Program-made: the position numbers and the translations under genes
Notes under the pieces: model-generated
Seen by the model: only the letters and a program-made list of their open reading frames with translations
Databases searched by the model: none
Told to the model about the DNA's origin: nothing
NCBI GenBank assembly: GCA_030154385.1
Contig: JASKJZ010000186.1
Span: 1 to 5,639, forward strand
DNA length: 5,639 nucleotides
DNA from: Clostridiales bacterium
Lineage (GTDB): Bacteria > Bacillota_A > Clostridia > Lachnospirales > Lachnospiraceae
Direction of reading: 5' to 3'
Part shown: one piece after another, positions 1-5,601 of the stretch
Layout: each line of letters begins with the position of its first letter
How positions within the stretch are numbered: the first letter of the stretch is position 1

Positions 1-828
1 ATGAAATGAATCTGTTAAAACAAATTCAGCCCCTTTAATTAAAGCTAAAAATTCTCCGGGACCTACATTGTTATGACTTGCATCATTTCCGTTCCAGATA
101 GACAAAACATCGATATTGTTTTTTTTCTTATATTCCCTCAATTTATCTAAAATTGCTTCAGTTGGTTTACCCAAAAAATAGCAAAATATATATTTATTAT
201 TAGCCACTCTATATTGATTTGCTATCTTATCCCATTGCCCACCAGACAATAGCAGCGTTGGATCTATATGACAGCTTACTTTTCTATTTATCAATTCTTC
301 TACGATTTGTTTTCCAGAATGCTCACGAACAGATATGTGTTTCATTCCTAAAAGATATCGTGTAAACTCTTCTCTTCTATCATCAACAATTTTTTCTATA
401 CCAAAAGAGGCTGCATAAGAAGCTCTCTTATCATGATCAGCAAAATCAGCAAAGTATTTTCCATCAATCTCAGTTGCTTCAGAATTCCAGACTTGATCAC
501 TGCCACAAATAAACATATCATAATATTGATTTGCGGCAATTCTGTCGTTATTTTTATTCAACCAATATCGTGAAAAGGATATATTATCATGATTAAACTG
601 ATCAAAATTTATTCTTCTTTGAAAACGTTCAGGTCTTTTTGTAATAAAAAACAAGAACTTCTTTATGTTAAATTTCAGCCACTCCAAATATACGTTATAA
701 TTTTGGAACCAGGGATTATTTAGCGTTTCAACTGAATTGCCTAACTCCAATAATATATTTTGAAGTGCGTAATTTTGTAAGCGATTTCCATAGTTATCGC
801 TCACCATAGTAATAATGCCAATTCTCAT
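1..828 (-). CDS. Polysaccharide pyruvyl transferase family protein, 3' end outside window
   Basis: Reading the minus strand from ATG at 828 gives 276 codons without a stop up to the window edge. The start is firm: it opens MRIGIITMVSDNYGNRLQNYAL, and an in-frame TAG lies seven codons upstream (849-847). Family marks of PF04230 are visible in order: the N-terminal GIIT...NYGNRLQNYAL segment, CGSDQVWN at residues 108-115, SYAASFG near 137-143, SVRE at 166-169, HIDPTLLL at 187-194, and TDSFH at 272-276 where the window ends (usually followed by G). Family members (CsaB, WcaK, EpsO type) transfer pyruvate from phosphoenolpyruvate to a sugar of a capsule, exopolysaccharide or wall polymer in the cytoplasm. 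Full-length members are usually around 350-400 residues, so roughly the last quarter is missing. The gene follows the flippase gene in the same direction but is now separated from it by an insertion sequence. The exact sugar acceptor cannot be told. Some PF04230 members may have other acceptors. Confidence 0.9.
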   Translation of the reverse strand, partial: MRIGIITMVSDNYGNRLQNYALQNILLELGNSVETLNNPWFQNYNVYLEWLKFNIKKFLFFITKRPERFQRRINFDQFNHDNISFSRYWLNKNNDRIAANQYYDMFICGSDQVWNSEATEIDGKYFADFADHDKRASYAASFGIEKIVDDRREEFTRYLLGMKHISVREHSGKQIVEELINRKVSCHIDPTLLLSGGQWDKIANQYRVANNKYIFCYFLGKPTEAILDKLREYKKKNNIDVLSIWNGNDASHNNVGPGEFLALIKGAEFVLTDSFH

Positions 829-841
829 ACTTATTATTGTA

Positions 842-848
842 CCTTCCT
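842..848 (-). promoter_or_regulatory. Ribosome binding site of the pyruvyl transferase gene
   Basis: AGGAAGG on the minus strand lies 13 bases before the ATG at 828. The match to the 16S rRNA tail is good, but the spacing is longer than usual. No better site lies nearer, and the in-frame TAG just upstream (849-847) leaves this as the only start. Confidence 0.55.
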
Positions 849-852
849 ATAA

Positions 853-858
853 TGTCAA
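853..858 (-). repeat. TTGACA at the right end of the element, possible shared core sequence
   Basis: TTGACA here matches TTGACA at 2882-2877 on the other side of the element, in the same orientation. Six bases in AT-rich DNA can recur by chance. The tract AAAAT follows four bases inside both copies, reading inward, which slightly favours a real end structure. Confidence 0.25.
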
Positions 859-885
859 GCCTAAAATCATTGAATTTTAAGGCTT
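857..885 (+). terminator. Stem-loop with T-rich tail on the plus strand, terminator-like
   Basis: On the plus strand AAGCCTAAAAT (857-867) and ATTTTAAGGCTT (874-885) form an 11-bp stem with one bulged A and a six-base loop. The stem is followed by TTATTT. The T-rich side is on the plus strand. On the minus strand, where all genes lie, the hairpin is followed by GACATTATAGG and is not a convincing terminator. No plus-strand gene ends here, so it may block antisense transcription into the element or may be a structural part of its right end. Confidence 0.3.
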
Positions 886-929
886 TTATTTAAATAGTTA
901 CCTCTAAAACCAGAGCCTAAAGTGCAGAA

Positions 930-950
930 CAGTCATGATATCATGTACTG
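930..950. repeat. 21-base near-perfect palindrome in the right part of the element
   Basis: The core CATGATATCATG is a perfect 12-bp palindrome. It is flanked by CAGT and ACTG, with one extra A on the left arm of the minus strand, giving ten complementary pairs plus one bulge. It lies about 70-100 bases inside the likely right end, between the hairpin block and the TTGACA. It could be a protein-binding site, a cruciform at the recombination end, or a hairpin at the 3' end of the guide RNA. Confidence 0.5.
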
Positions 951-971
951 AATAGCTAAAAATAGGTACAG

Positions 972-1344
972 TTTATAAAGCATCCTCTTGTTTGCTCTAT
1001 AAAGGCTATCAGCCTCTGTTTAACTATGATGGTGAACCTTCCGTGTCTAAAGGGATCATGTCCCAACTTCCTTCGTCCCACCTGTTCATACACTGAGTGC
1101 CGGCTAAGCTTTCTAACAGGGTCATGCCCTACGGAGGGAACTACTGCCAGCTACAGCTCTTGTTTGTATTTGATTTTACTGACCTCTTGGATCTTCAAGG
1201 TACTGATATTCAGTGGACGCTATACCTTGCTTCTCGCTGTTGGTCTTGTTATTAACGAAGCACAAATGATACTTCGTTGTTATCGGGTTTCTTACCAGAA
1301 CCCTGCTCGATTTCAGAATCATCTGGAACCCAGCAAGGTCCTGG
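972..1344 (-). ncRNA. Candidate guide RNA (bridge RNA/seekRNA) region of the insertion sequence
   Basis: This tract has no credible protein gene and lies just downstream of the transposase stop on the same strand, where IS1111-group elements encode their guide RNA. Read on the minus strand it holds successive hairpins. A: 1344-1332 pairs with 1307-1295, 13 bp with two G-U pairs, with a small inner hairpin in its 24-base loop. B: AACGAAG 1278-1272 with CTTCGTT 1260-1254, loop of 11. C: CAAGGTA 1229-1223 with TACCTTG 1202-1196, enclosing ACTGA/TCAGT. D: CCCTCCGT 1138-1131 with ACGGAAGG 1044-1037 (one mismatch), enclosing two hairpins with CATGA loops. E: AGAGGCT 1017-1011 with AGCCTTT 1007-1001. 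F: 1003-994 with 981-972, 10 bp with one G-U pair and a 12-base loop. E and F share three bases and cannot both be complete. Hairpins were found by eye and no folding energy was computed. The mature RNA is probably only part of this span. The guide loops were not identified. Confidence 0.55.
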
Positions 1345-1369
1345 ATTTCTTATCTATTTTACATGCTTA

Positions 1370-2797
1370 TTATGCTGCTACAGGTTCCTGTTCGCTCGGG
1401 CGTTTTATGTCCATTAACATCTTTTTCGGATCATATACCGTTCCCTTCGTCAGGATTGTGTAAATTACTCGAAGTAACTTACATGCAATTACAATCAGCG
1501 ATTGCATCTTCTTAAGTGGATTGTCTGCCCTCGTCGTATAGTAGACATGGAGTTCTTTGAATTCCTCCGCGTGAGCCACTACCGATTTGGCTGCTTGGAA
1601 CAGCCAGTATCTAAGTCGTTTGCGTCCTCTATGACTTATCTTGGTTTCCCCTTTATGCTTGCCCGAACTACACGAAACAAGCCCCATTCCACTTAACTTC
1701 TGGATTTCTTTTACATCATCGAATCTCGAAATATCTCCCATCTCTGCTAGTATTCCTGAGAATGTATTTTCTCCAATCCCTGATATTTCAAGGACATTTT
1801 CAGTATGTGGGATTTTTTTGCATTTTTCTTTCAGTTGTTTCTCTATCTCTGAAAGTTGTTCGTCTAACTCTATGATTCTGTTAACAAACCACTTTACAGC
1901 CGTTTTACTTGCATCTGCTCCATCCTTCATGCCAACGCTTTCCTTAGCATACTTTATGAGTTCTTCTGCTCTGCTGTAGCCTCGTCCTCTCAGCTTCGCA
2001 TTATGCCATATCTGTCTGATTCCATCATTGCTCAGAAAGAGAAGATCCTCTGGAAATGGTGCCTGTTTTAACAACTCCAGACTGAATGCTCCGTCAACCT
2101 TTCCCAGTGCGTCCTTGTATTCTGGAAAATATATCTTCATCTCTCGATGAAGTCGATTAATAAAACGGATTCTGTCCTCATTCAATTGTTCGCGGAACAT
2201 CGATAACCTACGCAGATCTGCATACAGTTTTTCAGGCAGGTATGGCATTCCAAAGTTACCATCCTTAACAAGATTTGCAATCAGTTTTGGATCCTTAGTG
2301 TCATCCTTAAGTTGGCTATTGTCCTCAAGTTCCTTCGTCTGCTTAACAGCATACGGATTAACCTGAACAACACTGATCCCATTAGAAATCATCCATGTAG
2401 CAAGACAGAACCAATAGTGCCCAGTTGGCTCAAGGCCTAACACAATCTGTTTCTTGTCATTTGCTGCAGCGATTTTAACGGCCCAATCCTTTGCAGACCT
2501 GAATCCATCCAGTGTATTACTGAATGAGAAAGCGGACTTACTGAGTTCTCTTCCCCTGGTATCAATAGCTCTTACATAGTGAGTTTCACTGCCTATGTCG
2601 CATCCTAAAATAAGCATATCATCACTGATGAATGAAAGTTTATCGTTCTTTGCAAACTTACCATTGGTTTCTAACTCATGCCAAGTTGAAGCATTCAAAT
2701 TATTTTTTATTGCCTCCACTTTTTCTATTAATTCCTGCTGTTCAAAAATATTTGCTGTAATCACTTGATTTTTTGCCTTTGTAGATTTAACATTCAT
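1370..2797 (-). CDS. IS110/IS1111-family RNA-guided transposase
   Basis: A 475-residue recombinase that would excise and insert this element in the cell, guided by an RNA from the element's non-coding region. The N-terminal RuvC-like DEDD domain (PF01548 type) shows D67 in GCDIG, E123 in GLEPTGHY, and D166 and D169 in DDTKDP. A lysine- and glutamate-rich helical stretch at about 306-329 is probably the coiled coil. The C-terminal PF02371-type domain starts with a helix-hairpin-helix (VLEISGIGENTFSGILAEMG, 335-354). It carries the SCSSGKHKGE segment with S377/S378, one of which should be the catalytic serine, followed by ISHRGRKRLRYWL. All expected residues are present, so it is probably active. 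About 60 residues precede the DEDD domain, and members of this family are usually shorter (about 300-430). The ATG at 2797 is preceded by AGAGG at 2810-2806 with an eight-base spacer. The gene reads with the operon, so it may also be transcribed by read-through. Confidence 0.95.
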   Translation of the reverse strand: MNVKSTKAKNQVITANIFEQQELIEKVEAIKNNLNASTWHELETNGKFAKNDKLSFISDDMLILGCDIGSETHYVRAIDTRGRELSKSAFSFSNTLDGFRSAKDWAVKIAAANDKKQIVLGLEPTGHYWFCLATWMISNGISVVQVNPYAVKQTKELEDNSQLKDDTKDPKLIANLVKDGNFGMPYLPEKLYADLRRLSMFREQLNEDRIRFINRLHREMKIYFPEYKDALGKVDGAFSLELLKQAPFPEDLLFLSNDGIRQIWHNAKLRGRGYSRAEELIKYAKESVGMKDGADASKTAVKWFVNRIIELDEQLSEIEKQLKEKCKKIPHTENVLEISGIGENTFSGILAEMGDISRFDDVKEIQKLSGMGLVSCSSGKHKGETKISHRGRKRLRYWLFQAAKSVVAHAEEFKELHVYYTTRADNPLKKMQSLIVIACKLLRVIYTILTKGTVYDPKKMLMDIKRPSEQEPVAA

Positions 2798-2805
2798 TAT
2801 ATATA

Positions 2806-2810
2806 CCTCT
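2806..2810 (-). promoter_or_regulatory. Ribosome binding site of the transposase gene
   Basis: AGAGG lies eight bases before the ATG at 2797 and supports that start over later in-frame methionines such as M61. Confidence 0.6.
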
Positions 2811-2830
2811 TTTAATTTTGGATTTTACCA

Positions 2831-2844
2831 ACTGGCCGGTCAGT
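2831..2844. repeat. 14-bp near-perfect palindrome in the transposase leader
   Basis: On the plus strand ACTGGCCGGTCAGT reads almost the same on the other strand, with a single mismatched pair. It is GC-rich in an AT-rich leader and lies between the proposed -10 box (2859-2854) and the ribosome binding site (2810-2806), at the expected start of the transposase mRNA. It could be an operator, a short 5' hairpin that limits transposase translation, or a left-end recombination structure. Confidence 0.5.
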
Positions 2845-2853
2845 AATAATCTA

Positions 2854-2882
2854 AATTTACTTGAGGTATTTTTTTGTGTCAA
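2854..2882 (-). promoter_or_regulatory. Probable transposase promoter
   Basis: TTGACA (2882-2877, a perfect -35 box) is followed after exactly 17 bases by TAAATT (2859-2854), four of six matching the -10 consensus. A transcript would start near 2847, about 50 bases before the transposase ATG. The -35 box lies only nine bases after the flippase stop. It may therefore lie at the junction of host DNA and element, as in IS110-type elements whose promoter is completed on circle formation or insertion. Confidence 0.5.
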
Positions 2883-2891
2883 CTTCTTGAC

Positions 2892-4310
2892 CTATTTAAA
2901 GTATACAGGAAGCTTTTTAAATCTGTTCATTATAAGTGAAATCACTTTACCAAATTGCTCCTTATAGAGCCACACTATAACAACCGTAATTGCCAAATTC
3001 ACTAAATAATATACCACACCATTCTTTATTGATACCGAAATGATCATTATAATGTTCAAAGCATTAACAATAATAAATCTGATTTTTTTGATACTTAACG
3101 GTGTGAATTCGGTTGTGTCAAAATATTTCTTAGCAACCATATATAGATATCCAATTATCGTCGCAAGTGCTGCTCCATAGAGTCCAAATATCGGTACTAA
3201 CGAAAAATTAAGTACTGTGTTTATTGCAGCTCCAATTACAGATACCTTTAATGCCGATTTCGTATCATGCATAATCAAATAATTTGACCCCAATAATCCT
3301 GAAATGCAATTAAGTATTGCACTATACATGAGTAACGGAGTGATTTTCCATGCAACAAGGTAGCTGCTCTCACAAAAATAAGTAATATACACTCTGTTTA
3401 AAACAATTAAAAACGCACCTGCACAAAACAAAACACATGTCAATAACTCAAAAACACTTGTGTAAGCTTTCGAACGATCTTCTCGAGATTCCAATTCAAA
3501 GGTTGTCAACTGCCACGCTTGTTGAAAAATGCCGTATATAACACTAAGAATAGTTGGAATTTTATGAGCAACTGCATAAATTCCATTTCCTGCAGCTCCT
3601 ACAAACCATAAAATAGCATACTTATCCGCTAAGTTCATAAGGCTCCATAAGATAGCTGTTGGCATCAAAGGCATACTTAGCCTTAACACTTTCTTGATTA
3701 ATTCTTTATCAATGAGTGAAATCTTAAAAACCTTATCTTTTGCGACTACAAATAAGTACACCGACGGCACTACATACGCCAATACAGTTGATAATAAATA
3801 CCCAGGAATTCCTTGTTTAAAATAAAGTAATAAAACAATATTCGACAAGGCAAGTGTTATCGTATATATAACGCCGGAAGCCGCAAATGCAGCAACTTTT
3901 CCATTTCCTCTAACATACATTTGTAAAACACCATATATAGATGATGTTACAACTAGTAAAATAAAATATAAAATATAATCTCTAAACGTATTTGAAAGGA
4001 ACAACAACGGATAAACAAAAGATACCAAAATATTTCCAAGTAATATTAATAGAGCCGTATTCGTAAATATTTTCTTGGCTTCATACTCTTTCTTTGAAAG
4101 AAACATTATGATAACATCGCCTATTCCCAGTGTAGCAATCGGAGAAAATAGGGAAACGGTAGCAATTAAAGTATCCACTGTACCATATTCGCCTGTACTT
4201 AATACATGCGTATAAAATGGAACCAAAATAAACGAAAAGAATTTGCTGCCGAAATTGGCAATCATAAATATTACAGAGTTTTTCGCAAGCTTCTGATATC
4301 TTTCATTCAC
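2892..4310 (-). CDS. Wzx-type polysaccharide repeat-unit flippase (MATE/MOP superfamily)
   Basis: A 472-residue integral membrane protein that would flip lipid-linked oligosaccharide repeat units from the inner to the outer face of the cytoplasmic membrane. The N-terminus (KLAKNSVIFMIANFGSKFFSFILVPFYTHVLSTGEYG) is the classic opening of Polysacc_synt (PF01943) proteins. About 14 hydrophobic segments can be counted, near residues 12-34, 42-67, 84-107, 112-132, 142-163, 168-190, 210-236, 250-270, 285-307, 316-340, 354-372, 375-395, 410-428 and 431-449. The segment DKYAILWFVGAAGNGIYAVA (229-248) and the SGLLGSNYLIMH region (337-348) are typical of the family, and the basic C-terminal tail should be cytoplasmic. 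The length is normal. Nineteen bases separate it from the glycosyltransferase gene upstream. The insertion sequence begins within a few bases after its stop, but the C-terminus (FKKLPVYFK) looks natural. The substrate cannot be read from sequence; the same fold also serves teichoic or O-antigen export. Confidence 0.92.
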   Translation of the reverse strand: MNERYQKLAKNSVIFMIANFGSKFFSFILVPFYTHVLSTGEYGTVDTLIATVSLFSPIATLGIGDVIIMFLSKKEYEAKKIFTNTALLILLGNILVSFVYPLLFLSNTFRDYILYFILLVVTSSIYGVLQMYVRGNGKVAAFAASGVIYTITLALSNIVLLLYFKQGIPGYLLSTVLAYVVPSVYLFVVAKDKVFKISLIDKELIKKVLRLSMPLMPTAILWSLMNLADKYAILWFVGAAGNGIYAVAHKIPTILSVIYGIFQQAWQLTTFELESREDRSKAYTSVFELLTCVLFCAGAFLIVLNRVYITYFCESSYLVAWKITPLLMYSAILNCISGLLGSNYLIMHDTKSALKVSVIGAAINTVLNFSLVPIFGLYGAALATIIGYLYMVAKKYFDTTEFTPLSIKKIRFIIVNALNIIMIISVSIKNGVVYYLVNLAITVVIVWLYKEQFGKVISLIMNRFKKLPVYFK

Positions 4311-4329: not shown

Positions 4330-5601
4330 TCAATTTTTTCTTTTCAGTGTAGTCTTCAGCATATTTTTCAAGTCATGAAAAGATGGAAGCCATGCTAAAC
4401 TCATGTTAAATCTAAGAAATCGAATACAGCCTTTAATCCACTTATAATCATTGCTCCAATTTTTTTGTACACCCAGAAATTCAACTGGAACATCTTTATC
4501 TATCTCATCAATAAGAGAAATCCATAGAGGAATAATTCTATTCATATCAAAATTTTCTTTTACAAATTCATGAGCTTTTTCACCCATATTTTTGTTTATT
4601 TCATCATTATTGAGTAAGCAAACCATTTTTTCAATAAAATCTGAGGAATTTCTGAACAGGTAACCCGTTTTTCCATCATCAACTGTATCTAAAAGTCCCC
4701 ATTTTTTTCTTGATACTACAGGAACATAGGCATATTCCATCTCTACAGCACTCACACAAAAGGTTTCTGTCAACGCTGTCGGATTTACAACACCTACTGC
4801 GGTATTCTTAAATATATCTACTTTTTCTTTTCCTACAATTCCAAGAAAATGTACCGATGGCAAAATGGCTCCTGTATCGTCTGTCAAATACTTCATAACC
4901 GAATTTTCGTAATCTTCTTGAGAGATGCCGAATTTTCCCAATTTTGCATTTCGATTATACACTTTCCCATTCCCTATTACATAGAGTTCTGCATCCGGAA
5001 CCTGTTTTAAAATATCAGGCCATATTTGAGCCAATTTATGAAATCCTTTTGCCGGGACAAGAGAACCCACATAAGTTACAACCTTTTTATTAAGTTCCCT
5101 CTTAACTGGAGCTGATTCCATCGGTACCATGTTGAAAATATAGGTCGATTTTTTGATAATATCATCATCTATGTAGGAATCGTATTCTTCTTTTCCAACA
5201 AAGACCACTCTCTTTACATTATTACATTTTCGTACGTCTTTTAGTTCATCATAGTCCAAATAAACATGTGACCATGCTACCGATTTTATGCTTGTTTTTT
5301 CAAGAGTTTGATACCATTCCGTTGTTTTCCCAACTTGATGAATTAGTATATCCATCCCATCAGAATTTGCCTTTTTAAGCATATCTATACTATCTTTAAC
5401 AATATAATCACAAGAACCATCCGGTAAAACATTTTCACTATAATGATATATTGTTATATCCAATCCTCTTTTTTTTAGTTGGCTTGCCAATAAAGTAAAT
5501 AAATATTCTGAGCCACCAACACCTGGATTGCCAAGTTCCGGATTACTTAAATCAACTCCAGCGAATTTCTCGTCTGGTATCTCAACTCCTATTTTTATCA
5601 T
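4330..5601 (-). CDS. Glycosyltransferase, family 4-type (GT-B fold)
   Basis: A 423-residue cytoplasmic sugar transferase that would add a sugar from an activated donor to a growing polysaccharide repeat unit. The N-terminal domain opens with MIKIGVEIP and has the glycine-rich acceptor-side loop GNPGVGGSE (24-32). The C-terminal Glycos_transf_1 (PF00534) domain begins near 172 with VVTYVGSLVPAKGFHKLAQIWP (174-195, K185 in the donor-phosphate loop), continues with AELYVIGNG (204-212), and carries the EX7E pair E279 and E287 in ALTETFCVSAVEME. The last 50 residues form a basic, partly aromatic tail (WIKGCIRFLRFNMSLAWLP) that might contact the membrane. No signal peptide is present. The frame stays open to the right edge, but the family-like MIKIG opening supports the ATG at 5601. 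The ribosome binding site there is weak (AGGA 12 bases away), fitting translational coupling to an upstream gene that ends in an ATGA overlap. The transferred sugar and acceptor cannot be told. Confidence 0.9.
   Translation of the reverse strand: MIKIGVEIPDEKFAGVDLSNPELGNPGVGGSEYLFTLLASQLKKRGLDITIYHYSENVLPDGSCDYIVKDSIDMLKKANSDGMDILIHQVGKTTEWYQTLEKTSIKSVAWSHVYLDYDELKDVRKCNNVKRVVFVGKEEYDSYIDDDIIKKSTYIFNMVPMESAPVKRELNKKVVTYVGSLVPAKGFHKLAQIWPDILKQVPDAELYVIGNGKVYNRNAKLGKFGISQEDYENSVMKYLTDDTGAILPSVHFLGIVGKEKVDIFKNTAVGVVNPTALTETFCVSAVEMEYAYVPVVSRKKWGLLDTVDDGKTGYLFRNSSDFIEKMVCLLNNDEINKNMGEKAHEFVKENFDMNRIIPLWISLIDEIDKDVPVEFLGVQKNWSNDYKWIKGCIRFLRFNMSLAWLPSFHDLKNMLKTTLKRKN

Follow-up and report, generated by a model that had tools for sequence, protein, structure and literature searches.

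The closest described systems belong to the IS1111 group of insertion sequences (ISEc11, ISPa11, ISKpn4, IS4321), for which passages of PMC11187229 describe a guide RNA encoded downstream of the transposase, in which the complement of the top strand precedes that of the bottom strand, and a promoter formed by the joined ends of the circle, reported for ISEc11. The same passages give the IS110 member ISEc21 a guide order reversed relative to IS1111 and note, as an exception, a 'green' group of elements whose IS110-type transposase gene is followed by a non-coding region. According to sections of PMC11208160, the bridge RNA of IS621 has two loops whose left and right guides address the target and the donor on either side of a core dinucleotide, and a promoter is again reported across the joined ends. 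Here, we describe an element that appears to share these three features of the IS1111 group as well as the two-loop guides, core and joined-end promoter of IS621. It lies in a 5,639-nt stretch of a Clostridiales contig (JASKJZ010000186.1), hereafter the window. From sequence comparison, we consider it very probable that the tract behind its transposase gene encodes a guide RNA of the bridge/seeker type on the transposase strand, acting in the cycle proposed below.

The window contains genes of a polysaccharide cluster (glycosyltransferase, flippase, pyruvyl transferase), and one minus-strand insertion element (Table 1) interrupts the cluster between the flippase and pyruvyl transferase genes. 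The ends were set from genomes with several copies (Fusibacter, two Butyrivibrio and Lachnospiraceae A4), where the left end reads ...AG-CTTCCTGTAT and the right end ...TATAGGA-AG, corresponding to positions 2914 and 843 of the window. One AG stands at each junction without target duplication beyond the core, as in the IS110 family, and a perfect sub-terminal repeat, CTTCCT/AGGAAG, spans 6 bp and extends further only with a 2-nt offset. Empty sites at the same locus were not found directly, only orthologues. The initial annotation had counted 541 non-coding nucleotides after the transposase. The gap to the next start codon, at 828 on the minus strand, does have this length, but 14 nt of it (829-842) are host DNA. 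Its count of 94 nt before the transposase proved too short, because it ran only to the stop codon of the flippase ORF (2892); the real 5' non-coding end measures 117 nt, with the left end at 2914. This flippase ORF now stops inside the left end (2892-2914), its last codons being element-encoded. In three relatives (L016, L068, L074), CTTCCTG or CCTTCCTG directly follows the right end, as if these copies had landed on another left end or on a circle junction.

Table 1. Positions of the element and of its proposed RNA features in the window
Feature	Position	Strand	Remarks
Whole element	843-2914	-	AG core dinucleotide at both ends (2913-2914, 843-844); set from multi-copy genomes and junction promoter spacing
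Left end	2798-2914	-	Repeat CTTCCT, -10 box TATACT, hairpin over the transposase ribosome-binding site
IS110-family DEDD transposase	1370-2797	-	475 aa; Pfam PF01548 and PF02371; NCBIfam NF033542
3' non-coding region, very probably encoding the guide RNA	843-1369	-	527 nt; 517-583 nt in the 60 tracts with both landmarks; covariation on 48
H1, long hairpin just after the stop codon	1295-1344	-	Part of the 5' extension; 19 pairs
H2, hairpin of the 5' extension	1254-1278	-	Both sides vary in 7 of 8 pairs
H3, hairpin with conserved CGUCC bulge (1215-1219)	1199-1226	-	Both sides vary in 5 of 8 pairs
Putative target-binding stem-loop	1092-1157	-	Helices 7-9: 9 of their 15 pairs vary on both sides, with 98-100% of cells paired
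Putative right target guide GUUNNNNCC	1133-1141	-	Would pair with the top strand to the right of the core
Putative left target guide and core UUAGAAAG	1109-1116	-	Equals the left flank at -1 to -5
Putative donor-binding stem-loop	1025-1090	-	Helices 10-13 of the covariation structure
Putative right donor guide GGAAGUU	1065-1071	-	Complementary to left end AGCTTCC, one G-U
Putative left donor guide ACGGAAG	1038-1044	-	Reads in the same sense as AGGAAG at the right end
H6, hairpin following the donor loop	972-1003	-	3 of its 9 pairs vary on both sides; 89% of cells paired
H7, hairpin beside the right end	857-885	-	8 pairs, one of them varying on both sides; 83-91% of cells paired; weak
Right end TTGACATTATAGGAAG	843-858	-	Contains -35 box and sub-terminal repeat; completes TTGACA-17-TATACT with the left end in the circle
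Right junction	826-848	-	AGGAAGG ahead of the start codon of the pyruvyl-transferase gene

None of 100 dinucleotide shuffles folds as well as the tract on the transposase strand (z -3.39), while on the opposite strand 12 of 100 shuffles do (z -1.25). An Rfam scan of the window's RNA at the gathering thresholds gave no match. We compared the tract with 117 related loci, comprising the best 80 of 108 confirmed from genomes, 36 from viral contigs and one from a plasmid; the viral contigs yielded no loci to a scan with the single protein and 36 to an alignment scan, and DNA searches returned 2 plasmid and 3 phage records. A fixed core motif together with an ORF is present in 80 of the 118 sequences (117 loci and the window), and since loci were picked by this motif, the conservation of the core itself is partly by choice. 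Ten non-viral loci without the core (L061, L065, L071-L073, L076, L077, L079-L081) end within the transposase match or within about 100 nt after it; L017 carries a shortened core, recovered by the covariance model described below. Removal of 7 loci without a right end and of 13 that were interrupted, truncated or distant reduced the 80 to 60 tracts; 50 remained after near-copy removal, and 48 of these form alignment A2 (L067 and L068 left out).

RNAalifold predicted 85 pairs on the 48 tracts, 38 of them changing on both sides. After editing by eye on the same sequences, the structure has 90 pairs with 94.8% of cells paired, and 45 pairs change on both sides, compared with 25.5±2.5 in shuffled alignments, which ignore the kinship of relatives that are not independent, and 13-20 for slid structures. 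The covariation sought by the initial annotation is thus present, and its count of at least six hairpins on the transposase strand agrees with the seven that we find conserved, the seventh, H7, being weakly supported. In H1, 14 of the 19 pairs vary on both sides and 96.3% of cells are paired. A possible long-range pairing, CGUCC-GGAYG, keeps four pairs that form in all 48 tracts with one-sided changes only; no GGAYG partner turned up in those sister-clade loci where the CGUCC of H3 is retained. An antisense ORF that overlaps the tract (1026-1463, plus strand) was rejected as a conserved gene, with indels of 1-2 nt in the alignment.

What does the conserved core recognize? In the proposed target loop, GUUNNNNCC lies on the 5' side and NNNNN-AG on the 3' side, both within short internal loops. 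We compared these guides with the flanks of their own elements in 56 left and 57 right pairs, which remained of 71 rows after missing or repeated flanks were removed (eight distant or doubtful loci were excluded beforehand, and L063 has no guide). The left guide equals the left flank at positions -1 to -5 in 53, 51, 47, 32 and 24 of the 56 sites, compared with 27.5, 26.1, 22.7, 19.9 and 16.0 expected by permutation (p 5e-5 at each of -1, -2 and -3, 2e-4 at -4 and 7e-3 at -5). When the guide is moved one base out of register, the total p becomes 0.043 (shift -1) or 0.69 (the other way); in either case AA and GG doublets keep a single position at p 2e-4. Read from these flanks, the agreeing bases belong at least in part to the target, since two copies in the same genome (L011, L062) differ there and elements with GAA guides are found in TGG (L009) and AGG (L078) sites. 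The window's own site fits poorly (guide UUAGAA, flank TTAAAA).

The case for the putative right target guide is weaker than for the left, with position +2 carrying the signal. There, guide and right flank covary in 36 of 57 pairs (28.2 expected, p 2.5e-4), and guides with T face a T flank in 6 of 7 cases compared with 9 of the 50 others (Fisher p 8e-4). At +1, a G that hardly varies matches the flank in 54 of 57 (p 0.053), and positions +3 to +6 are not significant over the same 57 pairs (p 0.21, 0.051, 0.66 and 0.28). In the donor loop, 4 nt of the left guide match the right end in 66 of 69 elements, a set that includes near-copies (57 GAAG with GAAG, 9 GGAG with GGAG); the right guide shows one co-change, in L050, where GGAGG in the guide goes with CTCC in the left end. 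Covariation of guides with target and donor is characteristic of bridge RNAs and seekRNAs, and together with the compensatory pairs it supports the earlier proposal of a guide RNA downstream of the transposase. If the tract were instead a regulator or attenuator without any guide role, its matches to the ends would derive from shared terminal repeats, and GGAAG motifs are indeed common to the ends and the RNA. However, the RNA matches flank positions, some of which differ between copies within the same genome, and shifted registers lose most of the signal; we regard a pure regulator as highly improbable.

The transposase itself combines a DEDD RuvC domain with a Transposase_20 domain, as is general in the IS110 family, and matches the NCBIfam model of IS110 RNA-guided transposases (NF033542) with 209 bits against a cut-off of 140. 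Its C-terminus also gives a weak NCBIfam match to a TIGR-Tas endonuclease (40.6 bits, cut-off 100). With a limit of E 1e-20, 4,867 related proteins were retrieved, a set that extends beyond the window's clade. The label 'IS1111-type' given by the initial annotation found no support in the protein: the transposase falls into its own clade of 29 rows (support 99/100), apart from a clade of IS4321 and three relatives (100/100), in a tree whose deep order is unresolved, whose branches are long and which does not contain IS1111 itself. It shares 19% identity with IS4321, its 475 aa and separate clade set it apart from the 330-350 aa and full-length relatedness of the IS1111 group, and the perfect repeat of 6 bp falls short of the 7-17 bp sub-terminal repeat of that group. 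Two further traits do match the IS1111 group, namely a long downstream non-coding region (527 nt, compared with 117 nt upstream) and the guide order, with right guides before left in both loops as judged by one covarying position for the right target guide and one co-change for the right donor guide. The element is IS1111-like in guide order and RNA position, with a transposase outside the IS1111 clade, and it further differs from that group in the extra 5' domain of its 3' region and in a broad, Shine-Dalgarno-like target. In IS621, guides run left before right in an RNA upstream of the transposase; here, the RNA lies downstream with right guides first.

Is the downstream RNA a common feature among relatives? 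In 31 of the 40 sources searched, a covariance model of the target and donor loops (R1) placed the core on the transposase strand, either at the 3' end of the transposase match or further downstream; 8 of the 40 had helped to build the model, and the hits extend down to transposases of 31% identity. The one hit elsewhere, on the minus strand in L094, has an E-value of 0.53, so the downstream placement suggested earlier extends to relatives, unlike the upstream guide RNA of the IS110 group sensu stricto. R1 missed nine sources: L061, L109, L114 and L115 hold little or nothing beyond the transposase match, L090 has 243 nt left, L064 has a truncated transposase, and L102, L103 and L116 gave no hit despite about 3 kb beyond the match. 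Within one bacterial family, R1 matches occur in 51 of 397 genomes. Two copies of the core lie close together in L032 (4957-5109 and 5254-5409), and R1 found two shortened copies in L017 from Blautia schinkii (4626-4747 and 6564-6665).

The distance from the stop codon to this core varies between clades. It is 200 nt in the window and 200-240 nt in six loci of the window's clade, including the window, compared with 24-57 nt in 12 of 14 relatives of 31-39% identity; the two exceptions are L091 with 91 nt and L113, whose frame stops early, with 244 nt. The suspicion of an enlarged RNA in the initial annotation is supported by these roughly 145-175 additional nucleotides, and the RNA may be in two parts. 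L085 and L086 (44-47% identity) have 64-70 nt with an H3-like hairpin containing CGUCC, while L083, L084 and L106 have 180-206 nt with an added long H1-like hairpin of other sequence. In our reading of these distances, the core alone would have gained H3, then H1, then H2. The likely role of this additional conserved 5' domain, H1-H3, is to bind the large transposase or to protect and process the RNA.

A competing explanation, to which we give somewhat less than an even chance, restricts the guide RNA to the 130-nt core of target and donor loops and treats H1-H3 and the 3' hairpins as a separate structured 3' UTR with a role in stability, termination or control of transposase expression. The short spacing in the 12 distant relatives leaves no room for H1-H3, and known seekRNAs measure 70-100 nt, with a longer, possibly precursor RNA, in passages of PMC11187229, both of which speak for such a division. 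Against it, H1-H3 covary within the clade. The hairpin of other sequence at the place of H1 in L083, L084 and L106 was weighed against the division as well, although it would suit a part of the RNA and a UTR equally.

The rebuilt empty sites often resemble Shine-Dalgarno sequences, e.g. TAGGAGG, AAGGAGG or GAAAGG. With redundant right flanks removed, 35 of 80 have an ATG-started ORF that begins 5-16 nt after the core; the window's clade contributes 22 (of 57) and the sister clade 13 (of 23). This count excludes L064, L087, L088, L094, L191, L201, L202, L209 and L214, repeats and flanks below 120 nt, and the right end of a few sister-clade loci may sit 1-2 nt too far in it. Six later 12-nt intervals hold 2-6 such starts in the window's clade and 1-5 in the sister clade (p 6e-11 and 2e-8). 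Among control AGG sites in the flanks, 95 of 850 have an ATG-started ORF at that spacing, with a minimum of 50 codons, while the site count also took ORFs of 25 codons open to the contig end. The other 45 of the 80 sites have no ATG-started ORF at 5-16 nt. An earlier count that allowed ATG, GTG or TTG gave 23 of 55 sites; random places reach 16%, and AAGG or AGGAGG motifs 21%.

Pairing with the anti-Shine-Dalgarno sequence averages -8.26 kcal/mol over 54 rebuilt sites with both flanks, a set that leaves out further loci with doubtful ends, compared with -2.47 for random flank and -6.0 for AGG-centred flank, a control that is itself Shine-Dalgarno-like. Values of -8 or below occur at 29 of the 54 sites compared with 16% of 850 AGG-centred controls, and values of -5 or below at 44 of 54 compared with 63%. 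For the gene behind L034, matched in 46 of 60 genomes, a Shine-Dalgarno sequence stands at the matching place in at least 6 of the 9 Roseburia orthologues listed (L219, L224 and L226 are ambiguous); for the gene behind L015, no empty site was found among matches that were short and repeat-like. The window's own site is a weak case, with -4.0 kcal/mol and a start codon 13 nt away. Taken from these flanks, many insertions in the group appear to fall in ribosome-binding sites before genes.

After insertion, the right junction pairs with the anti-Shine-Dalgarno sequence at -8.32 kcal/mol, and by its sequence the right end supplies a new Shine-Dalgarno-like element, AGGAAGG or AGGGAGG, before the gene. 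Selection could in principle produce the same bias, if gene-killing insertions were lost and those in ribosome-binding sites kept because the right end restores the signal, and the retained pairing (-8.32 compared with -8.26 before insertion) fits this. The left target guide, however, is mostly GAA-AG or AGG-AG and agrees with the flank, and we consider selection an unlikely source of the bias. Judging from the title of a 1997 paper by Doran, the mycobacterial IS110-family element IS900 reportedly targets translation start signals. Its target motif is given as CATGNNNNNNTCTCCTT in parts of PMC8141618, which we read as the reverse complement of a Shine-Dalgarno sequence with ATG, so that, as oriented there, the start signal would lie on the opposite strand, unlike here. 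As far as target choice goes, a preference for ribosome-binding sites thus appears to have a precedent in IS900.

When the window's ends are joined at AG, they form a promoter-like -35/-10 pair, TTGACA-17-TATACT, and a junction pair with a 17-bp spacer occurs in 53 of 56 elements, near-copies included. In the left end, which folds with z -3.27, ATACCTC pairs with GAGGTAT at the transposase ribosome-binding site, and both motifs are present in 61 of 71 left ends; this hairpin is likely a guard against read-through translation. Another promoter-like site, TTGACA-17-TAAATT, lies inside the element on the transposase strand (2854-2882), in a region where such sites are about as frequent as in shuffles.

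From the RNA structure, the guide agreement, the promoter-like junction and the target bias that we observed, we infer transcription, binding and catalysis as follows. The element would be excised as a circle, and the joined ends would form a sigma-70 promoter from which the transposase gene is transcribed, with the guide RNA as the 3' part of the transcript. In this RNA, the target loop would present the right guide GUUNNNNCC and then the left guide NNNNN-AG, and the donor loop the right guide GGAAGUU and then the left guide ACGGAAG. The transposase would hold the circle junction (ATAGGA-AG-CTTCCT) and the target (NNGAA/AGG-AG-G...) together, and strands would be exchanged at the AG core. The target guides read like Shine-Dalgarno sequences, which would lead many insertions into ribosome-binding sites, where the right end would restore AGGAAGG (or AGGGAGG) before the gene.

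With its downstream non-coding region and IS110-type transposase, the window's clade may belong to the 'green' group, whose members are unnamed in those passages of PMC11187229. Titles and abstract openings in the literature, a coverage that leaves out most subscription papers and preprints, included none that joins a bridge or seeker RNA with a Shine-Dalgarno target. On balance, we favour the view that the clade uses a generalist Shine-Dalgarno/anti-Shine-Dalgarno target loop, spreads through ribosome-binding sites genome-wide with repair, and carries an RNA of about 370-500 nt that has grown stepwise. If so, the target loop would mimic the Shine-Dalgarno sequence on one side and its complement on the other, and an RNA-guided clade would spread through ribosome-binding sites while mending each with its own right end. 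The proposed guide RNA, guides and core are now given for a large group of elements. An RNA-guided transposon could then choose a target that is short, near-universal and gene-sparing, and the group would offer natural bridge systems with a large transposase and an extra RNA domain, whose role is open to direct testing.
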